From positions 3,989,001 to 4,053,000 of the forward strand of contig NZ_JAGGML010000001.1 in the NCBI RefSeq assembly GCF_017875275.1: a stretch of DNA of 64,000 nucleotides, in the 5' to 3' direction. This stretch comes from Xanthobacter flavus (GTDB lineage Bacteria; Pseudomonadota; Alphaproteobacteria; Rhizobiales; Xanthobacteraceae). The position numbers were made by a program, and so were the translations under genes. Under the pieces are notes generated by a model that saw only the letters and a program-made list of their open reading frames with translations, was not told the DNA's origin and ran no database searches. Shown here one piece after another: positions 13,603 to 42,377 of the stretch (its first letter is position 1; each line of letters begins with the position of its first letter).

Positions 13603-13637
13603 TTGACAGAGCTATTTGTGATCATTGAATGTGATCA
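13603..13637 (+). promoter_or_regulatory. Promoter with GntR-type operator, copy 2
   Basis: TTGACA (13603-13608) is followed after 10 nt by TGATCATTGAATGTGATCA (13619-13637), which overlaps the -10 position (TTGAAT at 13625-13630, 16-nt spacer). Binding here would block RNA polymerase. The next gene downstream is the octopine-dehydrogenase-like gene at 13714. Confidence 0.75.
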
Positions 13638-13713
13638 AGTTTTTAGGTAAAGCGACGGCAGCGCTATCCGTAGGGCTCAGTCGCGATTGGGCGCGAAGGC
13701 TGAGGGAGTCGGC

Positions 13714-15684: not shown

Positions 15685-15689
15685 ATGCG

Positions 15690-18602: not shown

Positions 18603-18627
18603 GCCGAAGCATCCAGGGATAAGACAC

Positions 18628-19764: not shown

Positions 19765-19767
19765 GCC

Positions 19768-20583: not shown

Positions 20584-20586
20584 ACC

Positions 20587-21375: not shown

Positions 21376-21435
21376 GCGGCGGGGCCGCAGACCTTGTGTT
21401 GAAAACGAACCTTCCAGTGACAAAGGGGAACGGAC

Positions 21436-22428: not shown

Positions 22429-22451
22429 CCCTCGAGCACGAAGGGCAGACC

Positions 22452-23528: not shown

Positions 23529-23531
23529 GGC

Positions 23532-24305: not shown

Positions 24306-24330
24306 TCCTCACCGAGCGCGAGTTGCCCCG

Positions 24331-25509: not shown

Positions 25510-25529
25510 AGACAGGAGGTCCGAAACCC

Positions 25530-26180: not shown

Positions 26181-26395
26181 TCAGTTGTTCGGGGTCTTGT
26201 CGCCGCTGAGGATCTGCTCGGCATAGCGGCCGTCCACCACCGTGGCGAAATCCACCGGGCAGGGATAGAAGCCGGCCTTCACCAGCTTTTCGGTCGCCGC
26301 GATCTCCTTCTCGAAGCCGGGGCTGCCGGGGTTCACGGGAATGAGGGTCACGGCCTTCGCCCGCGCCGTGACGGGCGCGATGCGCGGATAGGGAT
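26181..26395 (-). pseudogene. Orphan C-terminal protein fragment beside the GlxA-type gene
   Basis: A minus-strand frame of about 71 codons ending at 26181 reads VTLIPVNPGSPGFEKEIAAT and EKLVKAGFYPCPVDFATVVD with good codon usage, but has no start. It abuts the stop of the regulator gene in another frame. It looks like the tail of a longer gene, perhaps a binding protein, that was lost. I cannot name the family. Confidence 0.35.
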
Positions 26396-27390
26396 CAGCG
26401 TACGTCGCCGCCGGCTTCGATCGATCCGAACTTGCCGCGGTAGTCCTGCGGGTTCACGCCCAATCGGCGGCGAAAGGCGCGCCTCATCCTCTCTTCGTCG
26501 ACGAAGCCGCAGCGAACCGCGATCTCCTTGATGCTCTGCCGTGTCTCCTCGAGAGCGCGGCGGGCAGCCTCGATCCGCAACTCCTCCACCACCTTGGCCG
26601 GCGTGCGCCCCGTCCGCGCCACATAGAGCCGGGCGAAAGTGCGCGGGCTCATGGAAACGCGCTCGGCGAGGGTCTCGACCCGGAGGTCCTGGTCGAGGTG
26701 ATCGCTGATCCAGCTGTGCAGGGCCTCGAAGCCGCCGTCATCGGCCTCCTGTAGGGCCAGCGGGACGCTGAACTGAGTCTGTCCTCCACCACGCTTCAAG
26801 AAGACGACCAGCCGCTTGGCCACCCTGATGGCCTCGGCTCGGCCGCGGTCGTCCTCGATCAGGGCGAGCGCCAGATCGATGCCCGCGGTCACGCCTGCGG
26901 AGGTCCAGACGGGACCGTCATGCTCGTAGATCGCATCGGCCGACACCATGAGATCCGGATAGCGATCCTGAAGGAGCCGGCAGGAACCCCAGTGCGTCAC
27001 CACCCGCCGCCCCCCGAGTAACCCGGCCGCCGCAAGCACAAAAGTGCCTGTGCAGACGGAGCAGACCCGGCGGATGCCCCCGGCGCGTTCCGAGAGCCAC
27101 GCCAGCAGGAGCGGCTCGCGTGCGGCGATATGCACCCCAGGCCCGCCCACGATCACCAACGTGTCCACCTCGCCCACACCCGCGAGCGGTTGGCTCATCA
27201 GCTCCAGGCCCGACGACGTGCGCACCAGCCCGCCTGCCACCGACGCCACCGTCAGGCGGTAGGGCGGCGCGGCGCCTTCGGAGGTCTCGCAGGACAGTTC
27301 AAACGCTGCCAGTGGACCGGAGAGGTCGAGCACCAGGGCATCGGGGAACACCACGAAGACGACATGTCGCTGCTGCAAGCCGCCCCCCAT
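26395..27390 (-). CDS. GlxA-family AraC regulator with DJ-1/PfpI-like domain (A)
   Basis: 331 residues. The N-terminal DJ-1/PfpI-like domain (to about 190) has VVFPDALVLDLSGPLAAFEL, LVIVGGPGVHIA and a Cys in VCSVCTGTFVLAAAGLLGG at the nucleophile-elbow position. The C-terminal AraC/XylS region (about 210-325) has two helix-turn-helices: VETLAERVSMSPRTFARLY and IKEIAVRCGFVDEERMRRAF. This is the architecture of GlxA-type activators. It is divergent from the DJ-1 gene at 27488, with 97 bp between, and so is the likely regulator of the rightward block. It shares its fold with its probable target gene. Confidence 0.88.
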   Translation of the reverse strand: MGGGLQQRHVVFVVFPDALVLDLSGPLAAFELSCETSEGAAPPYRLTVASVAGGLVRTSSGLELMSQPLAGVGEVDTLVIVGGPGVHIAAREPLLLAWLSERAGGIRRVCSVCTGTFVLAAAGLLGGRRVVTHWGSCRLLQDRYPDLMVSADAIYEHDGPVWTSAGVTAGIDLALALIEDDRGRAEAIRVAKRLVVFLKRGGGQTQFSVPLALQEADDGGFEALHSWISDHLDQDLRVETLAERVSMSPRTFARLYVARTGRTPAKVVEELRIEAARRALEETRQSIKEIAVRCGFVDEERMRRAFRRRLGVNPQDYRGKFGSIEAGGDVR

Positions 27391-27487
27391 CCCGTTGCCG
27401 GTCGTTGGCAGGAAAGGTGGGTAGAATGTCGTTTCCGCCGCGCCCTGTCATGCCCAATCTCATGCCGCAGCATCGAGAGGGAACGAC

Positions 27488-28234
27488 GTGAATAAAACAA
27501 CGCTGGATATCGGACTTCTCTTTTTCCCCGGCATGACCCAATTGGATGTCACGGGACCGTTCGAAGTCTTCGCCCGCCTGCCCGGCGCCCGGATGCATCT
27601 GCTTTGGAAGTCCATCGAGCCGATCACGAGCGACGTGGGGCTCACTCTCATGCCGACGACCACTTTCGCGGACTGTCCGCAACTGGACGTGCTCTGCGTC
27701 GGTGGTGGTCCGGGGCAGATGGCGCTGATGGATAACGAGGAGGTGATGGCTTTCGTCGCCCAGGCGGGCGCGCGCGCGCGCTATGTAACGTCCGTGTGCG
27801 CCGGGTGTTTCATCCTCGCGGGTGCCGGGCTGCTCGATGGCTACAAGTCCGCGTGCCATTGGCTGTCGCGCGATCAGCTCGCGATCCTCGGCGCCATCCC
27901 GGTCAAGGAACGCATCGTGGTGGACCGCAACCGCATCTCCGGAGGCGGCGTCACGGCGGGGATCGACTTCGCCTTCCAGGTGGCGGCCGAGCTGTGCGGC
28001 GACGAGGTCGCGAAGCGCGTCCAGCTGATGCTGGAGTATGACCCGAAGCCACCCTTCGACATCACCGAGGACAACGCTCCGGCCGAGCTTATAGCCGAGG
28101 TCCGGTCCGCCGCCCGCCCGCTGCTCGAGGAGCGGCTTCGCTCCAGCCAGCGGGCGGTCGCGCGAATGCAGCACGGCACGGGCCCGCAGGGGGCTGATTC
28201 CGCCGCGCTTCCCTCCTGCAGCGGGGCATCGTGA
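27488..28234 (+). CDS. DJ-1/PfpI protein, isonitrile-hydratase-like (A)
   Basis: 248 residues of the isonitrile hydratase (InhA) group. Asp20 in GMTQLDVTGPFEVFARLPG and Cys104 in RYVTSVCAGCFILAGAGLLDG align with the Asp17/Cys101 pair of Pseudomonas InhA as I recall it. The Thr after the Cys is Ala here (Cys-Ala), so activity may differ. GGGVTAGIDFAFQVAAEL and LMLEYDPKPPFD complete the pattern. InhA adds water to R-NC giving N-substituted formamides. A GTG start follows GAGAGGGA. It overlaps the dehydrogenase gene by one base. The C-terminal 40 residues beyond DITEDNAP are extra or variable. Confidence 0.8.
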   Translation: MNKTTLDIGLLFFPGMTQLDVTGPFEVFARLPGARMHLLWKSIEPITSDVGLTLMPTTTFADCPQLDVLCVGGGPGQMALMDNEEVMAFVAQAGARARYVTSVCAGCFILAGAGLLDGYKSACHWLSRDQLAILGAIPVKERIVVDRNRISGGGVTAGIDFAFQVAAELCGDEVAKRVQLMLEYDPKPPFDITEDNAPAELIAEVRSAARPLLEERLRSSQRAVARMQHGTGPQGADSAALPSCSGAS

Positions 28235-29310
28235 TGACCTTGCAACTGACCCGCATGGAGGAAGGCGGCCAGAGCATCTTCCGGTTCGAGGATCCCGACA
28301 GCGACCTGTCGGGGGTCATCGTGGTGGACTCGCTGGCGCTGGGGCCGGCGACCGGGGGCTGCCGCTTCTGGCACTATGACGACGAAGCCGCCATGCTCTC
28401 GGATGCCCGGCGCCTTGCCCGCGGCATGAGCTACAAGAACGCGATGGCAGGCCTGCCTTTGGGCGGCGGCAAGTCCGTCATCCGGCGGCCCGTTGGCGCC
28501 TTCGATCGAGCTGCGCTGTTCCGGGCATTCGGGCGGGTTCTGGACGAGATCGGAGGCGATTATCTGGCCGCCGAAGACGTGGGCACCACGCCGCGCGACA
28601 TGGAAGTCGCGCGCTCGCAGACGCCTTTCGTCTTCGGGCTTCCGGCCGATGCGGACCAGGCCGGCGGCGATCCTTCGCCGTGGACCGCACTCGGCGTCTT
28701 TCTCAGCATCGCCCATGTGTGTGCACGGCGGGGCCGTCCGCTGTCGGAGAGTCGGATCGCGGTGCAGGGCCTCGGCAGCGTCGGTGCGGACCTCTGCCGC
28801 CGCCTGCATGACGCTGGCGCCTCGCTGGTGGTCGCCGACGTGCACCCGGAGGCGGCAGAGCGTCTGCGCGCGACGACCCCCGTGGAGGTGGTCTCGCCGG
28901 AGGAAATCCATGCGTCAGACGTCGACCTTTTCGCCCCCTGTGCGCTCGGTGCCGGGCTCAACGAGGTCACCATTCCGCAGCTGCGCGCGCGTCTCGTCGC
29001 TGGCGCCGCGAACAACCAGCTCGCCACCGAGGCGGATGCGGGCCGCCTGCACGAGCGGGGCATACTCTACGTGCCCGACTTCGTCGCCAATGCCGGAGGC
29101 ATCATCAACGTGGCGGCAGAATACCTCGGGCACGACCGCGGTATGGTCCACGACGCCGTACACCGTACTCCCGGCCGCCTCGGGCAGGTGCTCGACCGGG
29201 CGGAGGCAAGCAGGACGTCGCCGGCGCTGGTCGCCGACGTCATGGCCCGGGAGCTGATCGTGCGGGCCGCCGGGGCCATGGCAGAAAACGAGGGAAAACG
29301 GCCGTTGTAG
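28234..29310 (+). CDS. Leucine/phenylalanine/valine dehydrogenase-type amino acid dehydrogenase
   Basis: 358 residues. The ELFV dimerisation and catalytic domain contains GPATGGCRFWHY, RLARGMSYKNAMAGLPLGGGK (two catalytic Lys) and YLAAEDVGTTPRDME. The Rossmann domain has VQGLGSVGADLCRRLHDAG. NNQLATEADAGRLHERG and FVANAGGIINVA are family hallmarks. It would oxidatively deaminate a hydrophobic amino acid to a 2-oxo acid with NAD+. The start is GTG 28231 or ATG 28234; ATG is chosen. Placed directly behind an InhA-like gene, it may act on an amino acid released by the pathway. Confidence 0.88.
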   Translation: MTLQLTRMEEGGQSIFRFEDPDSDLSGVIVVDSLALGPATGGCRFWHYDDEAAMLSDARRLARGMSYKNAMAGLPLGGGKSVIRRPVGAFDRAALFRAFGRVLDEIGGDYLAAEDVGTTPRDMEVARSQTPFVFGLPADADQAGGDPSPWTALGVFLSIAHVCARRGRPLSESRIAVQGLGSVGADLCRRLHDAGASLVVADVHPEAAERLRATTPVEVVSPEEIHASDVDLFAPCALGAGLNEVTIPQLRARLVAGAANNQLATEADAGRLHERGILYVPDFVANAGGIINVAAEYLGHDRGMVHDAVHRTPGRLGQVLDRAEASRTSPALVADVMARELIVRAAGAMAENEGKRPL

Positions 29311-29432
29311 CCTTTCACCTCCAAGAGCAGGATTTGCAAAAGAACAGGCGAGGGCGAGCCACTCCGCGCGGCTGCGTCCGTCGCCCGCAATCAATCCAGG
29401 AAGCCGATACGGCTCGCAGGGGAATACTCGAA

Positions 29433-30692
29433 ATGACGTACGATCAAGGCATGCAGAAACGCAGAAGTTGCTTGCGGGCGCTTTGGGTATCCGGTGTCGG
29501 CGCCATCATGGCTCTCGCGCTCGCGGCGACGCCCTCGGCGGCGGAGATATCCGAGGGCGTTGTCAAGATTGGCATCATCAATGACCAATCCGGTCCCTTG
29601 TCCGATCTCTCCGGCAAGGGATCGGTGGTGGCCGCCAGGCTTGCCGTGGAGGATTTCAAGAAACTCTCGCCCAACATCAAGGTGGAACTCCTCGTCGCCG
29701 ATCACCAGAACAAGGCTGACGTGGGAGCCCAGATCGTGCGGCGCTGGTTCTCCGAAGGCGTCGACATGGTGGCCGACATCGGAAATTCGGCAGTTGCCCT
29801 GGCCATCCAGTCTCTCGGGCGAGAAAAGAACAAGCTGGTGATGTACTCCGCCGTGGGCACGGTGGAGATCACCGGAAAGCAGTGCGCTCCGACCGGGCTC
29901 GCATGGCTGCACGACAACTACAACCTGGTCGCCGGCCCCATCCGCAAGCTCGTCGGCCAGGGGCAGGACAAATGGTTCTTCATCGCTGCCGACTACGCCT
30001 TCGGGCGCAACATGGTGGCTGAGTCCGAACGGATGCTCGGCACCGTCGGCGGCAAGTCCGTCGGCTCGGTGTTCCACCCGCTTGGCAATGCGGATTATTC
30101 CTCCTTCCTCCTCCAGGCGCAAAGCTCGGGTGCCAAGGTCGTCGCCTTTGCCAACGCCGGAGAGCAACTCGTTTCTTCCATCAAGCAGTGGAACGAGTTC
30201 AACATGAATGCCGGCCCCCAGACGCCGGTCGCGCTGCTCATGTTCCTCACCGACATCCACGGCATGGGCCTGGAGATGGCGAAGGGGCTGACGGGCGTCA
30301 CGGCCTGGTATTGGGACTTGAACGACAGCACCCGCGCCTTCGCCAAGCGTTTCTATGCCCTGCACGGCGCCATGCCGACGGCGCCGCAGGCCGCGGTCTA
30401 TTCCGCCGTGTTCCACTATCTGAAGGCGGTCGCGGCCATCGAGTCGGATGACACGGATCGCGTTCTCGAAAAGATGCGCGCGACGCCGGTCGATGACTTC
30501 TACGCACCGGGTGCCAAGCTCAGGGCCGACAACAAGCTGATCCACGATTTCTATCTGGTTCAAGTGAAGGAGCCGAAAGAGCTGGAAAAGCCTTGGGCTT
30601 ACTACAAGGTCCAGGAGACGATCTCCGCCGAAGTCGCCTATCGCCCCCTGAGCGAGAGCGACTGTCCGCTGGTTGCCGGCAAAGCGAAATAG
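29433..30692 (+). CDS. Periplasmic binding protein, branched-chain amino acid (LivK/Peripla_BP_6) type, orphan
   Basis: 419 residues. Signal peptide MQKRRSCLRALWVSGVGAIM...TPSAAE, then VVKIGIINDQSGPLSDLSGKGS, the start of the Peripla_BP_6 fold, with DHQNKADVGAQIVRRWF and WFFIAADYAFGRNM. It resembles the binding protein at 45363-46604 throughout, including a C-terminal SDCPL. No permease or ATPase genes are adjacent, so it must use the LivHMGF set at 60-63 kb or one elsewhere. ATG 29433 is preceded by AGGGGA. Confidence 0.88.
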   Translation: MTYDQGMQKRRSCLRALWVSGVGAIMALALAATPSAAEISEGVVKIGIINDQSGPLSDLSGKGSVVAARLAVEDFKKLSPNIKVELLVADHQNKADVGAQIVRRWFSEGVDMVADIGNSAVALAIQSLGREKNKLVMYSAVGTVEITGKQCAPTGLAWLHDNYNLVAGPIRKLVGQGQDKWFFIAADYAFGRNMVAESERMLGTVGGKSVGSVFHPLGNADYSSFLLQAQSSGAKVVAFANAGEQLVSSIKQWNEFNMNAGPQTPVALLMFLTDIHGMGLEMAKGLTGVTAWYWDLNDSTRAFAKRFYALHGAMPTAPQAAVYSAVFHYLKAVAAIESDDTDRVLEKMRATPVDDFYAPGAKLRADNKLIHDFYLVQVKEPKELEKPWAYYKVQETISAEVAYRPLSESDCPLVAGKAK

Positions 30693-30772
30693 GCTGAGCG
30701 CCACCCCTGCCCTGACCGGCGCGAACATGGTTGGGGCAGGACGGGGCTTATCGACGGGGGAGGCGGAGCGTC

Positions 30773-32293
30773 GTGCCGAGCAAAGCTTTCGATGTCATCA
30801 TTTCCGGAGGGCGGGTGATCGATCCCGAGACCGGCCGCGACGAGGTCGCGGACGTCGGCATCAGGGGCGGCGGCATCGTGCGGATCGGGCGCATCCCGGA
30901 AGCGAACGGGACGCGCCTGATCGATGCGACCGGACGCGTCGTGTGCCCCGGCTTCATCGATCTCCACGCCCACGGCCAGTGCGTCGCCGCGGACTGGATG
31001 CAGGCATTCGATGGCGTGACGACGACGCTGGAGCTCGAGGTCGGCGTTCTTCCCGTCGGAACCTGGTACGAGCGGCAGGAGCAAGTCGGGCGGGTACTGA
31101 ATTATGGTGCTTCGGCGAGCTGGATCTTCGCCCGCAAGCAGGTGATGGCCGGCATCGTGCCTGATCCGGGCCGGCATCCGATGGAAATGATGGGGGAGGG
31201 GGCCGATAATCGCGGCGGGTGGTCGAGCGACGTTGCGGGCGCGCGCGCGGTCGAGGAGATCTGCTCCGTCATCGAGGCCGGACTGCGGGAAGGGGGGATC
31301 GGCATCGGCATCGCCCACGGCTACGCCCCCGGCGCCGGGATCAAGGAGATGACGCGGGTCTGCGAGCTTGCCGCCCGCCATGCGGCTCCAACCTTCACGC
31401 ACATCGCCAACATGGCCAACGCGGATCCGCTGAGTTCCGAAGATTCCTATGTCCGCATCGTCGGCCTGGCAGCCGCCACCGGCGCGCGCATGCACATCTG
31501 CCATCTCAACTCGACATCGCTGCACGACATCGCGCGGTGCCGGGCGCTGATCCAGCACGCACAGGCGTGCGGTCTCCCGGTCACGGTTGAGGCCTACCCC
31601 TACGGGACAGGCTCGACGGTAATTTCGGCGAGCTTCTTCGCGGCCTTGGATTTTCCGGATCGAACCGGGTCCGGATACAACAGCATCGAATTGATCCACA
31701 ATGGCGCGCACTTGAAGGACAGGGCGGACCTTCTGTCGGCCCGGGAAGCGGACCCCGCCGCCTTGGTGGCATGGCATTTCCTTGATATCGAGAACGAACC
31801 GGCCTTTCAGGATCTACTAGATCTGTCGGTCCTCTACCCCGGCGGCATTATCGCCTCGGATGGAATGCCATGGGTGGAACCCGACGGCGCCATCTATCGC
31901 GGGGAGGAATGGCCGCTGCCGAAGCGCCTGTCGTCCCACCCGCGCTCAGCCGGAACCTTCACGAAGTTCATCGGCGAGTATTGGCGCGACCGTGGCAGGA
32001 TCGCGCTCGTGGACGCGCTCGCCAAATGCACGGTGTTGCCGGCCCGCCTGATTGAAAGTTGCTTGCCCGGAATGAAGCGGAAGGGGCGCCTCCAGGAGGG
32101 GTGCGACGCGGATATCCTTGTGTTTGATCCCGCGACCATCGCCTCTCGGGCCAGCTTTTCCGACATGACGGCGCCGGCCGCAGGTGTCGACGCGTTGCTG
32201 GTGTGCGGGCGACCGGTCCTTCTGGGGGGCCGGCTTGACGCGCGCGCCCGGCCGGGGCGTCCGCTGCGTGCCCGAGGACCGGCGCATGCATGA
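30773..32293 (+). CDS. Amidohydrolase, N-acyl-D-amino-acid deacylase/D-aminoacylase-like
   Basis: 506 residues. The urease-like beta-sandwich start FDVIISGGRVIDPETG leads to the metal-binding H-x-H in PGFIDLHAHGQ. Further ligands are probable in TLELEVG (Glu where D-aminoacylases have Cys), FTHIANMA (His), MHICHLNSTS (His) and IIASDGMPW (Asp). The fold hydrolyses amide bonds of N-acyl or N-formyl amines; N-substituted formamide deformylase belongs to the same superfamily. GTG 30773 follows GGGGGAGG. The 3' end overlaps the CobW-type gene by 8 bases, suggesting metal supply to this enzyme. Confidence 0.85.
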   Translation: MPSKAFDVIISGGRVIDPETGRDEVADVGIRGGGIVRIGRIPEANGTRLIDATGRVVCPGFIDLHAHGQCVAADWMQAFDGVTTTLELEVGVLPVGTWYERQEQVGRVLNYGASASWIFARKQVMAGIVPDPGRHPMEMMGEGADNRGGWSSDVAGARAVEEICSVIEAGLREGGIGIGIAHGYAPGAGIKEMTRVCELAARHAAPTFTHIANMANADPLSSEDSYVRIVGLAAATGARMHICHLNSTSLHDIARCRALIQHAQACGLPVTVEAYPYGTGSTVISASFFAALDFPDRTGSGYNSIELIHNGAHLKDRADLLSAREADPAALVAWHFLDIENEPAFQDLLDLSVLYPGGIIASDGMPWVEPDGAIYRGEEWPLPKRLSSHPRSAGTFTKFIGEYWRDRGRIALVDALAKCTVLPARLIESCLPGMKRKGRLQEGCDADILVFDPATIASRASFSDMTAPAAGVDALLVCGRPVLLGGRLDARARPGRPLRARGPAHA

Positions 32294-33209
32294 TGGCGAA
32301 GCCGCGCTTCCTGTTCCCGTCGTCATCATCGCAGGCGCGCTGGGGGCCGGAAAGACGAGCCTGATCAATGCTATGCTGGTCGGTGACGTGGATCTGCCCT
32401 TGGCCGTCATCGTCAATGACTTCGGCGCCATCGCCATCGACGAGGCCATCCTCTCCGCCACCGGCCTGCCGGTCTTCGCGCTGAAGAATGGATGCATCTG
32501 CTGCTCGCTGCAGGGCGACCTGCTGCGTACCCTTGCAGGGGTGCTGTCAGCCGGCCGGCCAATCGGTGCCATCGTGATCGAGGCGAGCGGCGTGTCCGAC
32601 CCGCGCGGGATCATCGAAGCGCTGCATGATCCAGTCTTGCGGAGGGCGGTGCGGCTCGACGCCGTGGTGACGGTGGTGGACGTCGAGATGCATGATGTGG
32701 CCGACGACCTCTGGCAGGCCCAGGTCCGGGCCGCCGACATCATCGTTCTCGCCAAAGCCGGCGAGACGGCCGCCGTCGATGATCTGCGGGCGAGACTTGC
32801 GGGCAGGGGCAAGACGCTGGTCGTCGTTGCGGACGAGAGCGGGGGCATTCCGCTGGAGCTTCTCGTCGGCCAGCCCTTTCAGCGCGAGGGGGTGCCTCTC
32901 ACCGAGGCCTCCTTGATCTCCGACGATCGCTTCGTCCATGTCGAGTGGACGTCGCCGCGTCCGCTGGCCCTCCCGCGGTTCAGGGCCATCATAGAGAACC
33001 TTGCGCCGCGTCTCGTGCGGGCCAAGGGGCTCATCCGCGTCGTCGAGCGGCCGGGCCAGACCTTCCTGTTCCAGCTCGTCGGCCGCCGCGCCAGCCTGCT
33101 GCCCTCGGATCTGCCCGTGGAGGGTGCGCGCCTGGTGCTGATTGGACGCGCAGGCAATCTTGACGCAGCAGGGGCAAAGGCCGAGCTCGAAGCGATGGTT
33201 CAAGAATAA
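32286..33209 (+). CDS. CobW/COG0523-family GTPase metallochaperone
   Basis: 307 residues. Walker A GALGAGKTSLINAM, switch region VNDFGAIAIDEAIL, the hallmark metal motif C-x-C-C in NGCICCSLQGDLLRTL, and IEASGVSDPRGI are all visible. A C-terminal CobW_C-like domain covers about residues 220-300. Such GTPases insert zinc, iron or cobalt into specific client enzymes, and the client is often the neighbouring metallohydrolase. It overlaps the amidohydrolase gene by 8 bases. The guanine-specificity motif is not the usual NKxD (LAKAGE), a mild oddity. Confidence 0.88.
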   Translation: MHDGEAALPVPVVIIAGALGAGKTSLINAMLVGDVDLPLAVIVNDFGAIAIDEAILSATGLPVFALKNGCICCSLQGDLLRTLAGVLSAGRPIGAIVIEASGVSDPRGIIEALHDPVLRRAVRLDAVVTVVDVEMHDVADDLWQAQVRAADIIVLAKAGETAAVDDLRARLAGRGKTLVVVADESGGIPLELLVGQPFQREGVPLTEASLISDDRFVHVEWTSPRPLALPRFRAIIENLAPRLVRAKGLIRVVERPGQTFLFQLVGRRASLLPSDLPVEGARLVLIGRAGNLDAAGAKAELEAMVQE

Positions 33210-33254
33210 CATGATTGTCTGCGGCCTTCACGCGGCGGTTCTCAGGGAAGCAGC

Positions 33255-34469
33255 ATGGCTGAAATTGCAGTTCTCGGTGCCGGCATGGTCGGCGTCGCCA
33301 CGGCGCTGGCTCTGCAGGAGCGGGGACACGACTGTGTCGTCATCGATCGCGCGCGCCCCGGTTCGGAGACGAGCTACGGCAATGCGGGCATCATCCAGGC
33401 CGAAGCTGTCGAGCCGTACGCGCTGCCGACAAGTCCGCTGGCGCTCCTCGCGATGGCGGGCGGCGCCAGGAATGCCGTCAACCTGCACTGGCCGTCTTTG
33501 CCCGGGCAGGCGCCCGCGCTCTTCGGCTACTGGCGATCATCCCTGCCCGGTCCCTTGGGCCGGGTCATTCCGCTCTGGCGCCAGCTGGTGTCGGAGGCTG
33601 TGCCCCGACACGCCGCCCTCATCGAGGCGGCGGGCGCCGAGGAACTGATCCGTCGGGACGGCTATTGGGAGGTCCATGACACAGAGCCTGGCCTTGCTGC
33701 CGCCGTGCGCGAGGCCGAGCGAAAGGGGCGTGAGCATGGTGTCCCCTTCTCTGTCGCCGACCGGGCGGGGCTTGCCGCAGCCGAGCCTGCCTTGCGGCGC
33801 GCGCCGGCAGGGGCCGTTCACTGGACTGCGCCCTGGACCTGCCTTGCACCGGGAGGGCTGGTGGACGCCTACGCGCGGCTGTTCGAGGAGCGCGGCGGTC
33901 GGCTCGCCACTGGCGATGCACGGACCCTCCAGCGTGCCGGTGCCGGCTGGCAGGTCGCGGGAATGGACGTGAAGATCGTCGTCGTGGCACTCGGGCCCTG
34001 GTCGCCGGAGTTGCTCCGGCCGCTCGGCTATCGCGTGCCGATGGTGCGCAAGCGCGGCTATCATCGCCACTATGGCGGCACCCACCGCCTCACCCGGCCC
34101 ATGCTGCTCGCGGACCACTCGGTGGTCCTGTCGCCGATGCGCGACGGCCTGCGCATCGCAACCGCCGCGGAGCTTTCCGCCGTGGAGCCGGCCGCCAGTC
34201 CACGCCAGCTCGCGCGGGGCGAGGCCGCAGCCCGGTCCTTCGTGGATCTGGGATTGCCCGTGGAAGCAACGCCCTGGTCCGGCACGCGCCCCTGCCTGCC
34301 GGGCCTGTTGCCGCTCGTCTGCCCGGCGAAGCGCCACGCCGGCCTGTGGTTCCACTTCGGCCACGGCCATCAGGGTTTCACCCTTGGGCCGGTAACGGCC
34401 GAGCGTCTGGCACGGTCCATCGACGGCGATGCGGCCGCGGTCGATGGTCTCGACCGCGGCGTGAACTAG
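33255..34469 (+). CDS. FAD-dependent amine/D-amino-acid oxidase (DAO, DadA-like)
   Basis: 404 residues. An N-terminal FAD Rossmann motif VLGAGMVGVATALALQERGH is followed by SYGNAGIIQAEAVEPYALP, as in DadA. WTCLAPGGLVDAYARLFEERGG lies before the substrate domain. C-terminal GTRPCLPGLLPLV and FHFGHGHQGFTLGPVTAERLA are typical of D-amino acid dehydrogenases and glycine-oxidase-like enzymes. It would oxidise an amine or D-amino acid to an imine, probably feeding electrons to the respiratory chain. AGGGAAGCAGC precedes ATG 33255. It is the last gene of the rightward block. Confidence 0.87.
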   Translation: MAEIAVLGAGMVGVATALALQERGHDCVVIDRARPGSETSYGNAGIIQAEAVEPYALPTSPLALLAMAGGARNAVNLHWPSLPGQAPALFGYWRSSLPGPLGRVIPLWRQLVSEAVPRHAALIEAAGAEELIRRDGYWEVHDTEPGLAAAVREAERKGREHGVPFSVADRAGLAAAEPALRRAPAGAVHWTAPWTCLAPGGLVDAYARLFEERGGRLATGDARTLQRAGAGWQVAGMDVKIVVVALGPWSPELLRPLGYRVPMVRKRGYHRHYGGTHRLTRPMLLADHSVVLSPMRDGLRIATAAELSAVEPAASPRQLARGEAAARSFVDLGLPVEATPWSGTRPCLPGLLPLVCPAKRHAGLWFHFGHGHQGFTLGPVTAERLARSIDGDAAAVDGLDRGVN

Positions 34470-34484
34470 CAATCGTTGGGCGCC

Positions 34485-35171
34485 TCAGGATGCGCGGGCC
34501 GCTGCCGCTTTGGCAAGGTCGAGCCGGCGCGCCTTGGCCACCTTCATCCTCTCTTGGAGCAGCGCCAGAACATCGGCCGGGGCCGTCTCTGGCGATCCCG
34601 CATTGAAGGGGGGCGCGGGATTGTATTCCAGGCGCAGCTGGATGGCTTCGGCGGTCCTGCGATCCACCAATTCGGAAATCACGGTCAGGCCGAGATCGAT
34701 GCCGGCGGTGATGCCGCCGCCCGTGATGCGGTTTCCGTCAATGCACACCCGCTCGCGGCTCGCAGTCACGCCAAAGACGGGCAGGACATCGATGGCGCTC
34801 CAGTGAGTCGCGGCCTTGCGCCCCTCCAGCAGCCGGGCTGCGGCAAGCACCAGCGAGCCCGTGCAGACCGAGGTGACGAACTTGGCGCCGGCCGCCTGCG
34901 TGCGAAGGAAATTCAGCACCTCGTCGTCGCCCATCAGGTCATCGGTGCCGTAGCCGCCGGGAACACAGATGACGTCGAGTCGGGGACAATCAGCGAAGGT
35001 GGTGGTGGGCAGGATGGAGAGCACGGTGTCGCTCTGCACTGCCTCGATGCGCTTCCAGACCAGATGGACCTCGGCGCCGGGCAGGCTGGAGAACACCTGC
35101 AGGGGTCCGGTCATGTCGAGCTGCGTGATGCGGGGAAAGACGAGCAAGCCGAATTGCAGGGATGAGGACAT
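34485..35171 (-). CDS. Isonitrile-hydratase-like DJ-1/PfpI protein (B)
   Basis: 228 residues, the same length as Pseudomonas isonitrile hydratase InhA as I recall it. The match is strong across the protein: VFPRITQLDMTGPLQVF (Asp19), VTSVCTGSLVLAAARLLEG (Cys103, Thr104), GGGITAGIDLGLT and LEYNPAPPFNAGSPETAP. Unlike copy A it keeps the Cys-Thr pair expected for activity. It would hydrate isonitriles to N-substituted formamides in the cytoplasm. It is divergent from the GlxA-type regulator at 35260, with 88 bp between, and convergent with the FAD oxidase gene. ATG 35169-35171 is chosen over an upstream in-frame start. Confidence 0.87.
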   Translation of the reverse strand: MSSSLQFGLLVFPRITQLDMTGPLQVFSSLPGAEVHLVWKRIEAVQSDTVLSILPTTTFADCPRLDVICVPGGYGTDDLMGDDEVLNFLRTQAAGAKFVTSVCTGSLVLAAARLLEGRKAATHWSAIDVLPVFGVTASRERVCIDGNRITGGGITAGIDLGLTVISELVDRRTAEAIQLRLEYNPAPPFNAGSPETAPADVLALLQERMKVAKARRLDLAKAAAARAS

Positions 35172-35259
35172 TCTACGACCTTCGGGGTCCGATCTTGACC
35201 CGCCGAGCATGGCATGGTGCGATCATATGTAGAATGTCACGGTTCCCTCGTTTTCAGCC

Positions 35260-36204
35260 ATGGCGATGATCGGCATCCTGATCTTCCCGGATTTCCAGCT
35301 TTTGGACGCTTCGGGTCCGGCATCGGTGTTCGAGATCGCGCGCCGCCTGGTTTCCACCGCACCGAACGTGCAGATGATCGCGGCACAGCCCGGGCCGGTC
35401 CGTAGCTCCTGTGGGGTTGAGGTGGTGGCCTCCAGCCTCACGTCGGCCAAGTCCATCACGACGCTTGTCGTCGCCGGCGGGCTGGGTGTCGAGGCCGCCA
35501 TCGACTGCCGGACGACCCTGGCCTTCGTCCGCCGCAATGCCGCGCGCGGCGTGCGGGTGGCGAGCGTTTGCTCCGGCGCCTACGTCCTGGCGGCGGCGGG
35601 GCTGCTGGACGGTCGCAAGGCAACGACCCACTGGTGCCGCACGCAGGATTTCGTCTCTCGCTATCCGAAGGTGAGGCTTGATCCGGACCGCATCTTCCTG
35701 CGCGACGGCAACGTCTGGACCTCTGCCGGTATCACCGCCGGGATCGATCTCGCGCTGGCCATCGCGGCGGAGGAGCATGGGGATGCGGTTGCAAAGCACA
35801 TCGCCTGCCAGCTGGTGCTCTACCATCGCCGCAGCGGGGGGCAGTCACAATTCTCCTCGCTTCTGGAACTGAAGACTCCGAATGGGCGGTTCGGCGCCCT
35901 GCTCACCTGGGTGCGGGAGCATCTGGACAAACCCCTTACCGTCGACATGCTCGCCGACCGGGCGGGGCTGAGCCCCCGCCATTTCGCGCGCATTTTCACC
36001 GCGGAGACCGGGACGACGCCCTCCAAGGCCATCGAGCGCTTGCGCCTGGAGGTCGCCCGAGAGCACGTACAGTCATCGTCGGAACCCATCGAACGTGTCG
36101 CTGAAGTGACCGGCTTTCGGGATCCGGAGCGCATGCGCCGCGCCTTCGTCCGCGCCTTCGGCCAAGCGCCACAATCACTGCGGCGCGCGGCTCGGACCAT
36201 TTAG
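35260..36204 (+). CDS. GlxA-family AraC regulator with DJ-1/PfpI-like domain (B)
   Basis: 314 residues, same architecture as the regulator at 26395. The DJ-1-like N terminus has ILIFPDFQLLDASGPASVFE and VASVCSGAYVLAAAGLLDG with a conserved Cys. The C-terminal AraC region has VDMLADRAGLSPRHFARIF and IERVAEVTGFRDPERMRRAF. It is divergently placed from InhA-like copy B, mirroring the A pair (regulator A with InhA-like A), so the two pairs look like a duplicated regulator-enzyme module. The start codon region MAMIGILIFPDF lacks an obvious ribosome-binding site. Confidence 0.87.
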   Translation: MAMIGILIFPDFQLLDASGPASVFEIARRLVSTAPNVQMIAAQPGPVRSSCGVEVVASSLTSAKSITTLVVAGGLGVEAAIDCRTTLAFVRRNAARGVRVASVCSGAYVLAAAGLLDGRKATTHWCRTQDFVSRYPKVRLDPDRIFLRDGNVWTSAGITAGIDLALAIAAEEHGDAVAKHIACQLVLYHRRSGGQSQFSSLLELKTPNGRFGALLTWVREHLDKPLTVDMLADRAGLSPRHFARIFTAETGTTPSKAIERLRLEVAREHVQSSSEPIERVAEVTGFRDPERMRRAFVRAFGQAPQSLRRAARTI

Positions 36205-36361: not shown

Positions 36362-37357
36362 CTATGGCTTGGCACTCGCGGCCATGGCGGTGCGGGCCTG
36401 CTCCACGAGATCGAGGCCGATCTTTTTGCTGTACTCTGTCACGACGGGTGCAACACGTTCGCTCATTGCTTTCAGCGCTTCGGGTGTCGGGCGGGTAATC
36501 TTGAAGCCCTTAGCCTGGAGCTCGACTTCCAGCTGTTCTGCCGCCTTGCGAGAAATATCCCGTTGGAAGGCGGCCGATTCCTTCGCGGCCTCCATGACCG
36601 CCGCCCGGTCCTTTTCTGAAAGACTGCCAAACCATTTGGGGCTGGCAAGAAGAACAAACGGCGTATAGACGTGCCCTGTCTTGGCCAGATGGCTCTGCAC
36701 CTCATAGAATCTTGCGGTGTAGATCAGAGCGTATGGCGTCTCCTGAGCGTCTACAGCACGATTTTCGAGTGCACTGAACAGTTCTGGCCAGGGAAGAGGT
36801 GTCGGATTTGTTCCCAGCGCCGTCCAAGTCGCGATGAAGAGCGGGTTGGGTATGACGCGGATATTGAGCCCGGCCATATCTTGCACCGTGTTGACGGGGC
36901 GTTTTGCGTTGGTCATATGGCGGAAGCCATTGTCCCACCAGGCCAACCCGACAATGCCGGTCTTTTCCTTCAACTGTGCGAACAGCTTTTCGCCGACCGC
37001 GCCGTCCATGACGGCATCCGCCGCGGCAAAGTCCTTATAGAAAAACGGGAGGTCGAAGATCATGAACTGGGGGACGACGCCGACCAGATTTGGCGTAGGG
37101 CCAACCATGATGTCGATGAAACCCGCCTGAGCCGACGCCTGCATCTCGGGCTCGCTCCCGAGTAAGCCGTTGCCGAATGTTTCGATCTTGATGCGGCCAT
37201 CGGTCTTCACTTCCACCAGCTTCGCAAAATAACGCGAAGCTTGTCCAACCGGATGATCATCGACAGGAACGTATCCCAGGCGGGGGTTCTGAGCCGCGGC
37301 TGGCGTGGCGGCCAGAAGAGATCCCAGAAGCGCTGCAGTAATAATCCGAGTTGTCAT
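36362..37357 (-). CDS. dctP: TRAP transporter solute-binding protein (DctP family)
   Basis: 331 residues. A signal peptide (MTTRIITAALLGSLLAATPAAAQ) is followed by a DctP fold: GQASRYFAKLVEVKTDGRI, then GNGLLGSEPEMQASAQAGFI, WWDNGFRHMTNAKRPV (the conserved Arg-containing block that binds carboxylate is close to NIRVIPNPL), and GTNPTPLPWPELFSALENRAVDAQE. The TRAP ligand is probably a carboxylate. The membrane subunits lie 3-5 kb away (41832-42377 and 40558-41835), separated by two rightward enzyme genes. GGGAGGA precedes the start. Confidence 0.92.
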   Translation of the reverse strand: MTTRIITAALLGSLLAATPAAAQNPRLGYVPVDDHPVGQASRYFAKLVEVKTDGRIKIETFGNGLLGSEPEMQASAQAGFIDIMVGPTPNLVGVVPQFMIFDLPFFYKDFAAADAVMDGAVGEKLFAQLKEKTGIVGLAWWDNGFRHMTNAKRPVNTVQDMAGLNIRVIPNPLFIATWTALGTNPTPLPWPELFSALENRAVDAQETPYALIYTARFYEVQSHLAKTGHVYTPFVLLASPKWFGSLSEKDRAAVMEAAKESAAFQRDISRKAAEQLEVELQAKGFKITRPTPEALKAMSERVAPVVTEYSKKIGLDLVEQARTAMAASAKP

Positions 37358-37718
37358 AGTTTTCCTCCCGATACTTTTTATTGGACCAAGGACCCAGCAT
37401 CTGCCGTCAAGAAGGGGCCATGGCTGTCACTTTGTTATGTATATTCAGCCTGGTAGACAGGTGGCGCGCCATCTACGCTGAAGCAAAGATCTCGTGACCT
37501 ATGGTGGCCTCCATTTGAAGATGACGCCGACGGTAGTTTGATCCTCGAATGTCTGGATTTACGATGGGCGTAATCTGAGGGGAAATTGCCCGAAGTCCGC
37601 CCGCGGCCAACGGAGGCAAGGCCCACAGCTCGCCCTCGAGCGTGCGAACCATAGGGAAATCACTCCAAGCATCCCTCGGACTCGATGCGAACCAATGATC
37701 GAGATGCTTGCCCACAAT

Positions 37719-37750
37719 ATGGACGGTATGTCCATTACGTTATTCTGGAC
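37719..37750. promoter_or_regulatory. Operator A, ATGGAC-N5-GTCCAT
   Basis: ATGGACGGTATGTCCAT (37719-37735) is an inverted repeat with 6-bp arms. A further half-site, CTGGAC, follows at 37745-37750. The same palindrome occurs before the Fe-alcohol dehydrogenase at 38172. The IclR regulator at 43066 is the best candidate to bind it. Confidence 0.65.
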
Positions 37751-37889
37751 AGACCTAGAATTGATTGTCAATGCTTCATCGCCGCTCTCGGGTCCTTGCG
37801 ATCGGGTGTTTGTCAGCTTGATTCACATCGCAGCTCTCGTCAGTGGTCGGTGTAGAAAATCAATGCCCATCGCATGCGAACAATAATTC

Positions 37890-38075
37890 CTCAGGATTTT
37901 CTGCACCGCATCCGGTGTTTGGAAGCGCGCGCACATTTGATCTGCTTACGAATGTCATGAGAGAGCCGACGTGAGAGGGCGTCGATTGCGCGCTCGGCCT
38001 TTGCGCGGAGCAATGCCGTCAGCTCCGAAAATGCTTTCGTGACGATATTAGCGTCGAAACTGCAGGACGGCAGGC
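37890..38075 (-). pseudogene. IS630-family transposase C-terminal remnant
   Basis: The minus-strand translation LPSCSFDANIVTKAFSELTALLR aligns without gaps to the IS630 consensus LPPYSPDFNPIEKAFSKLKALLR, given here as two blocks LPSCSFDANIV and TKAFSELTALLR. RAKAERAIDALSRRL follows as in the family tail. The catalytic Glu position of the DDE triad (the E of NPIE) is changed, and the rest of the gene is missing. Confidence 0.65.
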
Positions 38076-38171
38076 AGAGCAGGCTCTCAAGCCATGGCCC
38101 TGAGGGGTGGGGTAATGACCGGAATCCGGCGGAGGTGCTTGACAAGATAAGACTTCCGCATACACCTGTAT

Positions 38172-38197
38172 ATGGACATAACGTCCATATTATGGAC
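38172..38197. promoter_or_regulatory. Operator B, ATGGAC-N5-GTCCAT
   Basis: ATGGACATAACGTCCAT (38172-38188) repeats the architecture of operator A. GTCCATATTATGGAC (38183-38197) overlaps it as a second near-perfect palindrome, giving three half-sites in 26 bp. It lies 108 bp before the Fe-alcohol dehydrogenase start and about 28 bp after a TTGACA box (38139-38144). Confidence 0.68.
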
Positions 38198-38304
38198 AAA
38201 AATGATGCGGGCGTGCGTTGGATGCGCCGGCTAAACGACGACGTGCCGGAAGCCAAGATTGCTGGAGCGATGCAGGCAGGCGGAACACGAGGGAGGTCGG
38301 AGGC

Positions 38305-39432
38305 GTGTATACCATTACCTATCTCACAAACATCAATTTCGGGCTGGGAGCGTCCGACTCGCTGGCGGAGACGCTGCGCGAACTCGGCATGTCGCGCCCT
38401 CTGGTGATCAGCGATCACGGCATCAAAGCTGCCGGCATACTCGACCGTCCGGGCTTTGCCTTTCTAAGTTCGGCTCCGGTCTTCTTGGACGTTCCCACCA
38501 ACCCGACCGAAAGCGCGGTTGCTGCTGGTCTCGAACTGTACAGGCAAGTGGGCTGCGATGGCGTCGTGGCGATCGGCGGGGGATCTCCCATCGACCTGGC
38601 CAAGGGCGTGGCTCTTCTCGCCACACATGAAGGCGAACTGGAGCGCTATGCGGCGATTCTGGGCGGCGTAGCCCGAATAACAAGTGCGGTCGCGCCACTC
38701 GTGGCCATTCCGACCACGGCTGGCACCGGCTCCGAAGTTGGCCGCGCGGCGCTGATCACCCTGAATGACGGCCGAAAGCTCGGCTTCATCAGCCCGTTCC
38801 TGATCCCACGCAGAGCGGTCTGTGACCCAGCGCTGACGATGGGGCTTCCTCCGGCTCTGACCGCGTCGACAGGTCTCGACGCGCTGTCGCACTGTATCGA
38901 GACATACATTTCGCCCCGCTTCAACCCCCCTGCCGAGGCAATTGCCACTGACGGATTCAAGCGCATCTGGAAGGCTTTGCCTGTTGCCTACGCCGATGGC
39001 ACGAACGCGGAGGCGCGGACCGAACTCATGATGGGCGCGCTTGAAGGCGGCATGACATTCCAGAAGGGTCTCGGAGCCGTCCATGCGCTGAGCCATGCCC
39101 TGGGGGGGCTTAAGGAGGCGAAGCTTCATCATGGAACACTCAACGCCATCCTGATGCCGACCGTCCTTCGGTGGAATGTGGAAGTTGAACCGGTTGCCGA
39201 GAAGGTGCGCCACCTTGAAAGCCTTGCAGGGCTTGAAGCAACAACCCTCCCGGACGCACTGGACGAGTTGAACAGTCGATTGAGCATCACACCGAAACTG
39301 TCCGATCTTGGGGTGCCCCGCCACGTCCTCGATTGGGTGTGCGAGCGAGCCATCGCAGACCATAGCCATCCGACCAATCCACGTCCTTTGACCAAGGAAG
39401 ACTACGCCGCGATCCTCGAGACCGTCTTTTGA
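38305..39432 (+). CDS. Iron-containing (group III) alcohol dehydrogenase / maleylacetate-reductase-like
   Basis: 375 residues. The NAD-binding block GVVAIGGGSPIDLAKGVALL and AIPTTAGTGSEVGRAALIT are standard. The metal ligands are provided by DALSHCIETY, VHALSHALGG and HHGTLNA. Members reduce aldehydes or ketones or act as 4-hydroxybutyrate dehydrogenase or maleylacetate reductase. GTG 38305 follows GAGGGAGG with 8-nt spacing. Its promoter region carries operator B, so it probably belongs to the same regulon as the TRAP transporter. Confidence 0.88.
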   Translation: MYTITYLTNINFGLGASDSLAETLRELGMSRPLVISDHGIKAAGILDRPGFAFLSSAPVFLDVPTNPTESAVAAGLELYRQVGCDGVVAIGGGSPIDLAKGVALLATHEGELERYAAILGGVARITSAVAPLVAIPTTAGTGSEVGRAALITLNDGRKLGFISPFLIPRRAVCDPALTMGLPPALTASTGLDALSHCIETYISPRFNPPAEAIATDGFKRIWKALPVAYADGTNAEARTELMMGALEGGMTFQKGLGAVHALSHALGGLKEAKLHHGTLNAILMPTVLRWNVEVEPVAEKVRHLESLAGLEATTLPDALDELNSRLSITPKLSDLGVPRHVLDWVCERAIADHSHPTNPRPLTKEDYAAILETVF

Positions 39433-39470
39433 TCTCAGAACACCCGGAGACGGTCTAAGGAGGGAGTTAC

Positions 39471-40217
39471 GTGAGACCGATCGTGATCGTGACGGGTGCA
39501 AGCCACGGCATCGGTGCTGCAACGGCCAGGCTGTTCGCCGCCGACGGCTATGATGTTTGCATAAACTATTTGTCGGACGGCGCCGCGGCGTCCGAAGTCG
39601 TCGACGCCTGCCTTGCCACGGGCGCAAGGGCCATCGCGGTCCAGGGAGACGTGGGCGACAAAGAGGACATAGAAGCTCTGTTCAGAGCCTGCGATGATGA
39701 ACTCGGGAGAGTGACCTGCCTGGTCAACAATGCCGGCATCATTGGGAAGGCCGGCAGGATAGAGGATTTACAGCCCGAGGTGCTGGAAACCGCCTTCAGG
39801 ATAAACGTCTTCGGCGCCATGTATTGTATCCAGGAGGCCGCGAGACGCATGTCCACCCGCAAGGGCGGCCAAGGCGGCACGATTGTGAACATGTCGTCGC
39901 TTGCCGCCTTGCTTGGCAGCCCCAACGAATATGTCCACTATGCCGCCACCAAGGGGGCGTTGGAATCGATGACTTTCGGTGCGGGCAAGGAGCTGGCCCC
40001 GGAGGGCATCCGCGTCAATGCCATCCGCGTCGGGACCACCAACACGCGGATACACTCCCAAGGTGGAAACCCCGAGCGCCCGGCCAGGATTGCCGCGTTA
40101 ACCCCCATGGGGCGTATCGCGGAACCCGAGGATATCGCGCGCGCTGCCCTGATGCTCGCGTCTCCCGGCTCCGGCTTCATGACAGGCACGTTGATCACGG
40201 TCGCCGGAGGGCTCTGA
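39471..40217 (+). CDS. Short-chain dehydrogenase/reductase (SDR)
   Basis: 248 residues. VTGASHGIGAATARLFAADGYD is the cofactor loop and LVNNAGIIGKAG the NNAG motif. VNMSSLAALLGSPNEYVHYAATKGALE carries the Ser and the Y-x-x-x-K. FMTGTLITVAGGL closes the fold. GTG 39471 is preceded by AAGGAGGGAG. It sits 38 bp after the Fe-alcohol dehydrogenase, so the two form an operon, probably acting on the carboxylate imported by the TRAP system. Confidence 0.88.
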   Translation: MRPIVIVTGASHGIGAATARLFAADGYDVCINYLSDGAAASEVVDACLATGARAIAVQGDVGDKEDIEALFRACDDELGRVTCLVNNAGIIGKAGRIEDLQPEVLETAFRINVFGAMYCIQEAARRMSTRKGGQGGTIVNMSSLAALLGSPNEYVHYAATKGALESMTFGAGKELAPEGIRVNAIRVGTTNTRIHSQGGNPERPARIAALTPMGRIAEPEDIARAALMLASPGSGFMTGTLITVAGGL

Positions 40218-40557
40218 TCCTTTGCGCTCGCGAAGTGTCAGAAGGGCGTGGCGGCCGTGCAATGCCCGTCAGCCACTCTGTCGGCGCCTCGTCCGCATTC
40301 GGTTCAGGCGCCAATCCATCGCACGTTTCGATGGAGCGACCGACTGCCGGATCGTCCTGAGAGCGCTTCGCCGACTGGTCGAGTTCTTCGCGAAACTGAC
40401 ACGAAGTCGCCGCCCGACGACGTGCGGGCACTCAGGCTTGCGCTGCGTCGGCGCCCGCAACTTCCCTTCAGGATTTTGCTGCCGTCCTCGCCAGAACTGC
40501 GGAGCGGCCGTCGTTGATGGCCAGTTCGCCTTCCCAGTATAGAGCGCGATCCGACCC
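40218..40557. other. Intergenic, no feature recognised
   Basis: 340 bp between the convergent SDR and dctM. I see no gene, terminator hairpin with T-run, or repeat that I could support. Confidence 0.5.
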
Positions 40558-41835: not shown

Positions 41836-42377
41836 GGCGTTTCCTCCGAAGTGCGCGGGGGAACCACGACCGGCAGGGGCTCAACATGCTCGACCCCCGA
41901 CCAGGGGGCCGGCAGGATGCCGCGCAGCGAGCGCCACAGATCAAGAAGAAGAACGAGGGCCATCAGGATCGCGGCGACGAAACCCGCTGCATAGATGGCA
42001 CCGACGGGAATCCCAGACAGGGCCTGGACGTTGCTCCACTCGATGAGGGTCAGCGACCAGCTGCCTTCGCCCATGAGCCAGCAGCACCACAGCATCAGGC
42101 CGTAGGAAGCAAGAAAGCAGACCCAACGCATCCTTGGCGGCAAGCGGACGACCAGGGACTCGACGCCGAGATGCGCGCCCTTGGCCAGAGCCACCACGGA
42201 TCCCATGAAGATGACCCAGACGAGGACGACACGGGACACCTCGACTGCAAATGGAATGCCTGAGCTGAAACCATAGCGCAGCACGACGTTTGTAAAGATT
42301 AGGAGGCTGATGACTGCCATTCCGATGACGATGAAGACGTCAAAGGCCTTGAATAACCAGTGCAACGCTGAAGACAT
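41832..42377 (-). CDS. dctQ: TRAP transporter small permease (DctQ)
   Basis: 181 residues with four helices. FDVFIVIGMAVISLLIFTNVVLRYGF is the characteristic first helix, and RVVLVWVIFMGSVVALAKGAHLGVESLV carries the conserved W-x-x-F-x-G and H-x-x-v motifs. It overlaps dctM (ATGA). It forms the membrane unit with DctM for the DctP binding protein encoded at 36362. Confidence 0.92.
   Translation of the reverse strand: MSSALHWLFKAFDVFIVIGMAVISLLIFTNVVLRYGFSSGIPFAVEVSRVVLVWVIFMGSVVALAKGAHLGVESLVVRLPPRMRWVCFLASYGLMLWCCWLMGEGSWSLTLIEWSNVQALSGIPVGAIYAAGFVAAILMALVLLLDLWRSLRGILPAPWSGVEHVEPLPVVVPPRTSEETP

Follow-up and report, generated by a model that had tools for sequence, protein, structure and literature searches.

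The DNA analysed here, called the window throughout, is a stretch of 64,000 nucleotides from Xanthobacter flavus (G000 C1:3989001-4053000; genome size 5.35 Mb), and it carries a cluster of nine genes in which two relatives of isocyanide hydratase (ICH, also known as InhA) are joined to an amidohydrolase, a CobW-type GTPase, two enzymes of amino acid oxidation, a binding protein and two GlxA-type regulators. As the best explanation, held tentatively and at rather less than an even chance, we propose an inducible cluster for N-blocked, perhaps N-formyl, amino acids, with ICH as a probable feeder. Gene content, conservation, linkage, co-occurrence and a shared promoter motif have been observed directly and are the basis of this proposal. 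In the scheme that we infer for each reaction, for the inducer, for the transported substrate and for metal delivery by CobW, a metal-dependent amidohydrolase that receives its metal from a CobW GTPase of its own would take a formyl or other acyl group off the nitrogen; the freed amino acid would then become a 2-oxo acid by means of an oxidase dependent on flavin adenine dinucleotide (FAD) acting on a D-form or unusual amine, of a leucine-type dehydrogenase acting on the L-form, or of both. The two ICH-type DJ-1 enzymes would probably hydrate amino-acid-derived isonitriles to N-formyl amino acids, feeding this core, and the two GlxA regulators would control both ends of the cluster through a shared promoter site.

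Gene Order and Conservation of the Cluster

An earlier note, made from the DNA letters, had described nine genes and their domains, and gene calls and domain profiles agree with it on both coordinates and domains (Table 1). From left to right, GlxA-type regulator 1 (minus strand) is followed on the plus strand by DJ1a, the leucine-type dehydrogenase, the ATP-binding cassette (ABC) binding protein, the amidohydrolase, CobW and the FAD enzyme. At the right end DJ1b (minus) is divergent from GlxA-type regulator 2 (plus), and the genes of a tripartite ATP-independent periplasmic (TRAP) transporter (minus) come next. The plus-strand row probably makes one or two transcripts, because its intergenic distances are -1, 122, 80, -8 and 45 bases. 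The nearest named relative found for the cluster is Xanthobacter aminoxidans, in which all nine genes stand in the same order, the amidohydrolase being 91% identical and the other eight 84 to 97%. Within the available flanks this order is also present in three of four further close loci (L040, L042, and L043); in L041, DJ1b and both regulators are absent within its flanks. Part of the gene set is present in Azospirillum. Such recurrence of the gene set is more than chance.

Table 1. Features of the cluster and of the adjoining transporter genes, in window positions.
Feature	Position	Strand	Evidence or remark
GlxA-type regulator 1 (DJ-1 domain plus AraC helix-turn-helix)	26395..27390	-	Pfam HTH_18 83 bits, DJ-1_PfpI 60 bits; divergent from DJ1a
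Divergent promoter, regulator 1/DJ1a	27391..27487	.	Putative regulator site; block TGGCAGGAAAGGNGGGYAGAATGTCGTTTCCGCC kept in 7/7 aligned loci
DJ1a, isocyanide hydratase-like enzyme	27488..28234	+	PDB 3non 239 bits; 51% identity over 221 residues
Leucine/phenylalanine/valine-type amino acid dehydrogenase	28231..29310 (start 28231 or 28234)	+	PDB matches
ABC-type periplasmic binding protein (Peripla_BP_6)	29433..30692	+	307 bits
Amidohydrolase, PRK09061/NF006560 subfamily	30773..32293	+	NCBIfam NF006560 654.8 bits, cut-off 340
CobW-type GTPase	32286..33209	+	cobW 137 bits from start 32286; CobW_C also
FAD-dependent amino-acid oxidase/dehydrogenase, DAO fold	33255..34469	+	Pfam DAO 170 bits
DJ1b, isocyanide hydratase-like enzyme	34485..35210	-	PDB 3non 251 bits; 53% identity over 223 residues
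Divergent promoter, DJ1b/regulator 2	35167..35259	.	GTAGAATGTC at 35167-35176 (-) and 35229-35238 (+)
GlxA-type regulator 2	35260..36204	+	Pfam HTH_18 78 bits, DJ-1_PfpI 77 bits
TRAP transporter genes	36362..42377	-	DctP 36362-37357, DctM 40558-41835, DctQ 41832-42377

Linkage of ICH and Amidohydrolase

Related loci were counted by tblastn and their neighbours within 10 kb of the amidohydrolase. The 42 loci include neither the window nor L068 and L069 (short flanks, 37-38% identity), L071 to L081 (24-35% identity), L096, which has no amidohydrolase, and L097 to L101, which come from genomes that were already represented. An ICH gene could be missed where a contig offers little sequence on one side, as several of the 42 do, and the loci are not independent, Rhodobacteraceae, Azospirillum, and Acetobacteraceae forming much of the set. 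ICH-like genes have been found in 14 of them, with a GlxA gene in 13 of those 14. Relatives of the ABC binding protein show a similar distribution (13 of the 14 ICH-bearing loci and none of the 28 others), and FAD oxidases, of three kinds, occur in 27 of the 42 loci, including 12 of the 14.

The ICH-linked amidohydrolases do not form one clade in a 42-row tree, and a one-clade tree is rejected by the approximately unbiased test (p-AU 5.2e-6). In this tree, from which L055, L065, and L088 are absent and in which L068, L069 and the window are included, the ICH labels were taken from gene neighbourhood and set before tree building; L068 and L069 were labelled as being without ICH although little of their flanks is available. 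The second ICH-linked clade consists of L094 and L095. The simplest account of the tree would be that ICH was gained twice beside the amidohydrolase; a single gain followed by several losses is possible. Of the linked cluster described in the earlier note, the ICH-amidohydrolase linkage is supported as a conserved one, with two origins as its simplest history. The DJ-1 gene of L094 and L095 is found behind CobW, in the same row as the amidohydrolase and apart from the regulator gene, and that of Acuticoccus precedes the amidohydrolase by 23 bases; because of these placements, the DJ-1 gene does not merely follow its regulator. The Acuticoccus locus also has genes annotated as formamidase family, ArgE and Glu/Leu/Phe/Val dehydrogenase nearby, the formamidase-like protein reaching 76 bits, far under the NCBIfam cut-off of 500.

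The Amidohydrolase and its CobW Partner

The NF006560 family is uncommon, its cut-off being passed in 12 of 150 relatives (own genome included). Across 45 aligned rows (40 distinct proteins) His65, His67, His210, His244, Asp363, and Arg391 are invariant; the catalytic Asp column was read by motif, and the middle of the yardstick sequence is X fill. At the column of the D-aminoacylase metal Cys the window protein has Val, with Glu89 one column earlier in all 45 rows (40 distinct), and the position of the carboxylate-binding Lys, which we take to be Lys252 of D-aminoacylase, is Asn246 in the same 45 rows (40 distinct). In a wider set of 30, these His, Asp, and Arg residues do not vary either, and at least 90% of the set have Glu89 and Asn246. 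D-aminoacylases have been assigned to subtype V, with a Cys/His/His site, and subtype IV has Glu/His/His plus HxH; in OngB, the Lys that binds the substrate carboxylate is Lys254 (both as given in PMC12017989). Among the subtype V features, the fold, the catalytic Asp and the carboxylate Arg are found in the window protein; the Cys/His/His site and the carboxylate Lys are not. The enzyme is therefore D-aminoacylase-like by fold and fails two D-aminoacylase features, and Glu89 may serve as a metal ligand.

The CobW gene probably starts at 32286, from which the cobW GTPase and CobW_C domains are both complete. From this start, the overlap with the amidohydrolase gene that the earlier note had reported would be of 8 bases rather than about 110. 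The sequence GCICC, read by eye, matches the CxCC motif, which is presumably a mark of CobW/COG0523 metallochaperones. In 40 of the 42 loci the gene immediately after the amidohydrolase is a CobW relative, and because of this adjacency CobW may deliver metal to the amidohydrolase, as its probable dedicated metallochaperone. The two exceptions are L065, where the amidohydrolase is in two frames and the CobW gene lies further on, and L088 of Photobacterium (45% identity), in which no CobW was found. In L065 (10001-11484) the amidohydrolase of Nitratireductor aquibiodomus matches as two overlapping pieces in different frames.

The amidohydrolase-CobW pair is a conserved core unit in Alphaproteobacteria with varied partners. 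These partners are ICH and GlxA, an M81 peptidase, an M20 peptidase or a protein resembling the MslH epimerase. M81 peptidase genes are present in 17 of the 42 loci, and M81 and ICH are found together only in L059; the M81 protein scores 325 bits against microcystinase MlrC (cut-off 999). Directly before an Acetobacter amidohydrolase, at 8677-9996 of L060, lies a gene whose product resembles MslH, which epimerises the C-terminal Trp of a lasso peptide (391 bits, cut-off 700). In Acetobacteraceae, the NCS1-permease, M20-peptidase and epimerase-like neighbours indicate no single substrate.

The Oxidising Enzymes

The earlier note had paired an amino acid dehydrogenase with a FAD amine oxidase, and the first half of that pair has gained in support. 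The dehydrogenase matches the Glu/Leu/Phe/Val dehydrogenase 8gxd (279 bits) and the leucine dehydrogenase 6acf (275 bits) in the PDB. At 68% identity or more it occurs in 8 of the 150 relatives (own genome included), all of them in the set of 12 that carry the amidohydrolase (hypergeometric 9e-11, without correction for kinship); the bound was chosen after seeing a gap between 68% and 50%, and 21 of the 150 genomes match at E 1e-70. Within the genus, the same 3 of 14 genomes carry both genes. Linkage is not enough to explain the co-occurrence, since G007 has the dehydrogenase module on one contig and the amidohydrolase on another. The other four amidohydrolase-bearing genomes (G037, G076, G086, and G108) lack this dehydrogenase and have no ICH gene within 10 kb.

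The FAD enzyme is a generic DAO-fold protein. Its fold is nearest those of glycine oxidase and L-amino acid deaminase, and the fold search returned a broad set of amine and amino acid oxidases with no substrate named. An identification as a true D-amino acid dehydrogenase (DadA) was rejected, the score being 116.8 bits against an NCBIfam cut-off of 383. The product handled is most likely an alpha-amino acid, because this fold stands beside a leucine-type dehydrogenase, and the amidohydrolase most likely frees that amino acid from an N-acyl or N-formyl form.

The ICH Relatives

As the earlier note had proposed, two proteins of the cluster are InhA-like. The top matches of both DJ1a and DJ1b are the solved Pseudomonas ICH and its variants, and on these matches the two proteins are to be seen as close relatives of ICH. 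DJ-1 domains in the cluster number four rather than two, since each flanking regulator also carries one. DJ1b probably starts at 35171. DJ1a retains Asp17 and Cys101, and has Ala in place of Thr102 and Val in place of Ile152. In ICH, according to PMC10971408, Asp17 is the proposed acid/base and Cys101 the nucleophile. Both residues are also retained in the two GlxA regulators, and their presence was rejected as proof of ICH activity. All 65 enzyme rows (60 without second copies of a locus) have Tyr181 and Pro183, which are changed in both window regulators, and Gly150 is kept in 54 of the 65. As a marker separating enzymes from regulators, Gly149/Gly150 proved weak (absent from 17 and 11 of the 65 enzyme rows). 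In a quick tree, with weak forks and two very long regulator branches, DJ1a and DJ1b lie towards the solved ICH and apart from the two window regulators.

Regulators and Promoters

The regulators at both ends of the cluster may be called dedicated, as in the earlier note, given the promoter motif shared in the window and its near relatives. In seven aligned DJ1a promoters a 34-base block around GTAGAATGTC is almost unchanged, the window and L039 being nearly identical. Exact copies of GTAGAATGTC in the 64-kb window number three, all within the two divergent promoters, and the one at 35167-35176 (minus) overlaps the likely DJ1b start. The motif was picked after being seen, and a shuffle test that allows one mismatch gave 4 hits with 1.35 expected, 4 of 100 shuffles having as many; the three exact hits are striking only for where they lie. 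At the DJ1a promoter L039, L042, L094, and L096 have an exact copy, and L040 and L043 one with a single mismatch; none was found at the corresponding DJ-1 promoters in L044 to L047, L059, L063, L084, and L095. In 6 of 6 cases the DJ1b promoter has AATGTC conserved on one side and, on the other, CATTCT, which is AGAATG inverted. These motifs support a putative joint control of both cluster ends in Xanthobacter and near relatives.

Weighing the Explanations

Isonitrile catabolism by the cluster is possible, and natural substrates for it exist, since fungi make valine isocyanide, a compound inhibitory to E. coli and S. aureus from which N-formylvaline arises (as reported in PMC9381783). The full isonitrile route of the earlier note has on its side the ICH relatives, their linkage, the co-occurrence of the dehydrogenase and the regulators. 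We consider doubtful, as a whole, a complete bacterial route that takes amino-acid-derived isonitriles, such as the fungal valine isocyanide, as food under isonitrile-sensing GlxA regulators, in which the isonitrile would be hydrated to an N-formyl amino acid, a Glu-type amidohydrolase served by CobW would remove the formyl group and the product would be oxidised to a 2-oxo acid. In the open-access PubMed Central literature searched, no isonitrile catabolic operon of such kind was found, nor, by title, a paper on a CobW/COG0523-amidohydrolase pair.

Several observations weigh against the use of N-blocked amino acids fed by ICH. No ICH gene lies within 10 kb in 28 of the 42 loci, and in 16 of those 28 an M81 peptidase gene does. 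ICH-like genes occur widely (70 of the 150 relatives, counting the own genome, at an E value of 1e-40 or less), and many stand without an amidohydrolase, some beside a GlxA gene. Asp17 and Cys101 cannot tell an enzyme from a regulator, because both GlxA regulators keep them. The leucine-type dehydrogenase is present in 7 of the 14 ICH loci and missing from the other 7, and the DJ-1 promoters of Azospirillum, Acuticoccus, and L095 gave no copy of the promoter motif. The proposal also has no explanation for one operon with both a FAD oxidase and a dehydrogenase of the nicotinamide adenine dinucleotide (NAD) type. Finally, the amidohydrolase, in a predicted model (mean predicted local distance difference test, pLDDT, 91.7), has a fold nearest to D-aminoacylases, its nine best Foldseek matches all being N-acyl-D-glutamate deacylase, D-aminoacylases, Klebsiella D-acylase or OngB (20 to 24% identity), and an ICH-bearing relative, L095, carries a D-amino acid dehydrogenase (702 bits, cut-off 494).

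The last two points argue for the main alternative, the use of N-acyl-D-amino acids or D-peptides without isonitriles, which we hold to be only slightly less probable than the proposal itself. In this alternative the amidohydrolase would free D-amino acids, the FAD enzyme would oxidise them, the leucine-type dehydrogenase would turn the 2-oxo acid into an L-amino acid, and the DJ-1 proteins would do other thiol chemistry. The D-serine-dehydratase-like protein of L095 and the M81 peptidases, M20 peptidases or MslH-epimerase-like protein beside the amidohydrolase elsewhere are in accordance with it; on the other hand, it has to accommodate the replaced metal Cys and carboxylate Lys, and it leaves unexplained both the ICH linkage in two clades and the two ICH genes of the window. 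The D-amino-acid genes of L095 (D-amino acid dehydrogenase, then a D-serine-dehydratase-like gene with Ala_racemase_N plus D-ser_dehydrat, at 13225-15879) come after those for the amidohydrolase, CobW, DJ-1 and the TRAP transporter in this genome, which is congeneric.

Detoxification alone, with the ICH proteins defending the cell against isonitriles of its neighbours beside an amino acid operon of separate task, seems improbable. Isocyanide hydratases are thought to defend against isocyanide natural products (according to PMC10792529), and the frequency of ICH-like genes away from the amidohydrolase, some of them next to a GlxA gene, fits such a role; DJ1a, however, opens the row, with an overlap into the dehydrogenase gene, and the two-clade linkage argues against separate tasks. 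The idea that the DJ-1 proteins are not enzymes, acting as ligand-sensing or accessory partners of the GlxA regulators, draws on the frequent GlxA neighbour, often divergent from the DJ-1 gene, and on the Asp17 and Cys101 common to enzymes and regulator domains, and is quite improbable given the position of DJ1a and DJ1b in the quick tree, the behaviour of Tyr181 and Pro183 and the DJ-1 domain that the regulators already have.

Transport Genes and Neighbouring Genes

The TRAP genes possibly form the uptake system of the cluster, their membership being uncertain. They occur at the same position in Aquabacter L040, and L094 and L095 have a DctM of 56% identity next to the amidohydrolase. An iron-type alcohol dehydrogenase gene (38305-39432) and a short-chain dehydrogenase/reductase (SDR) gene lie between the TRAP genes of the window, on the opposite (plus) strand. 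Upstream, at 18565-26000, a separate gene row codes for an M24 peptidase, an ABC transporter with an NMT1-type binding protein, an SDR, a FMN (flavin mononucleotide)-dependent dehydrogenase and RidA, together with a 367-residue product (22425-23528) with no Pfam match. This row was excluded as a cluster member, as it does not adjoin the cluster in the available parts of L039 to L043. Loci L102 to L114, from other genomes of the family, have no amidohydrolase but carry a related DJ-1 gene, often accompanied by a GlxA gene, within a stretch that is partly conserved.

Significance and Comparison with Known Systems

A conserved operon that joins ICH, an amidohydrolase, two amino-acid-oxidising enzymes and their own regulators makes a catabolic role of ICH testable by growth and knock-out. 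In addition, an amidohydrolase subfamily with CobW directly behind it so regularly is a clean case for the cargo and recipient of a COG0523 protein.

Compared with the Pseudomonas ICH/InhA (PDB 3non and variants), DJ1a and DJ1b share Asp17, Cys101, Gly150, and Tyr181; they differ by the Ala and Val of DJ1a at Thr102 and Ile152, and by genes that sit in an amino acid operon. The dehydrogenase is like leucine dehydrogenase and the tryptophan dehydrogenase ScyB in family and length, and misses the ScyB cut-off (275 of 600 bits). NfdA, the N-substituted formamide deformylase, has been assigned to PF07969 in a figure legend of PMC13081902, the same Pfam family as the window amidohydrolase. No N-substituted formamide deformylase by name is among the 50 fold matches listed for the amidohydrolase model; the superfamily that the earlier note had named stands, and the particular link to NfdA is not supported, the nearest folds being D-aminoacylases. 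With D-aminoacylase and N-acyl-D-glutamate deacylase (1m7j and 3gip) the amidohydrolase has in common the fold (TM-score, template modelling, 0.73-0.77 by query length), HxH, two further His, the catalytic Asp and an Arg near position 377; unlike them, it has another residue in place of the metal Cys and an invariant Glu one column earlier, has Asn for the carboxylate Lys and comes with its own CobW gene, at 24% identity. The M81-peptidase clusters of Rhodobacteraceae contain the same amidohydrolase-CobW pair with a TRAP transporter and a FAD oxidase, and differ in having an M81 peptidase gene instead of ICH and GlxA. The window protein is, by a score well over the cut-off, a member of NF006560/PRK09061, a model that names no function past 'amidohydrolase family protein', and to which the present analysis adds the link with CobW.

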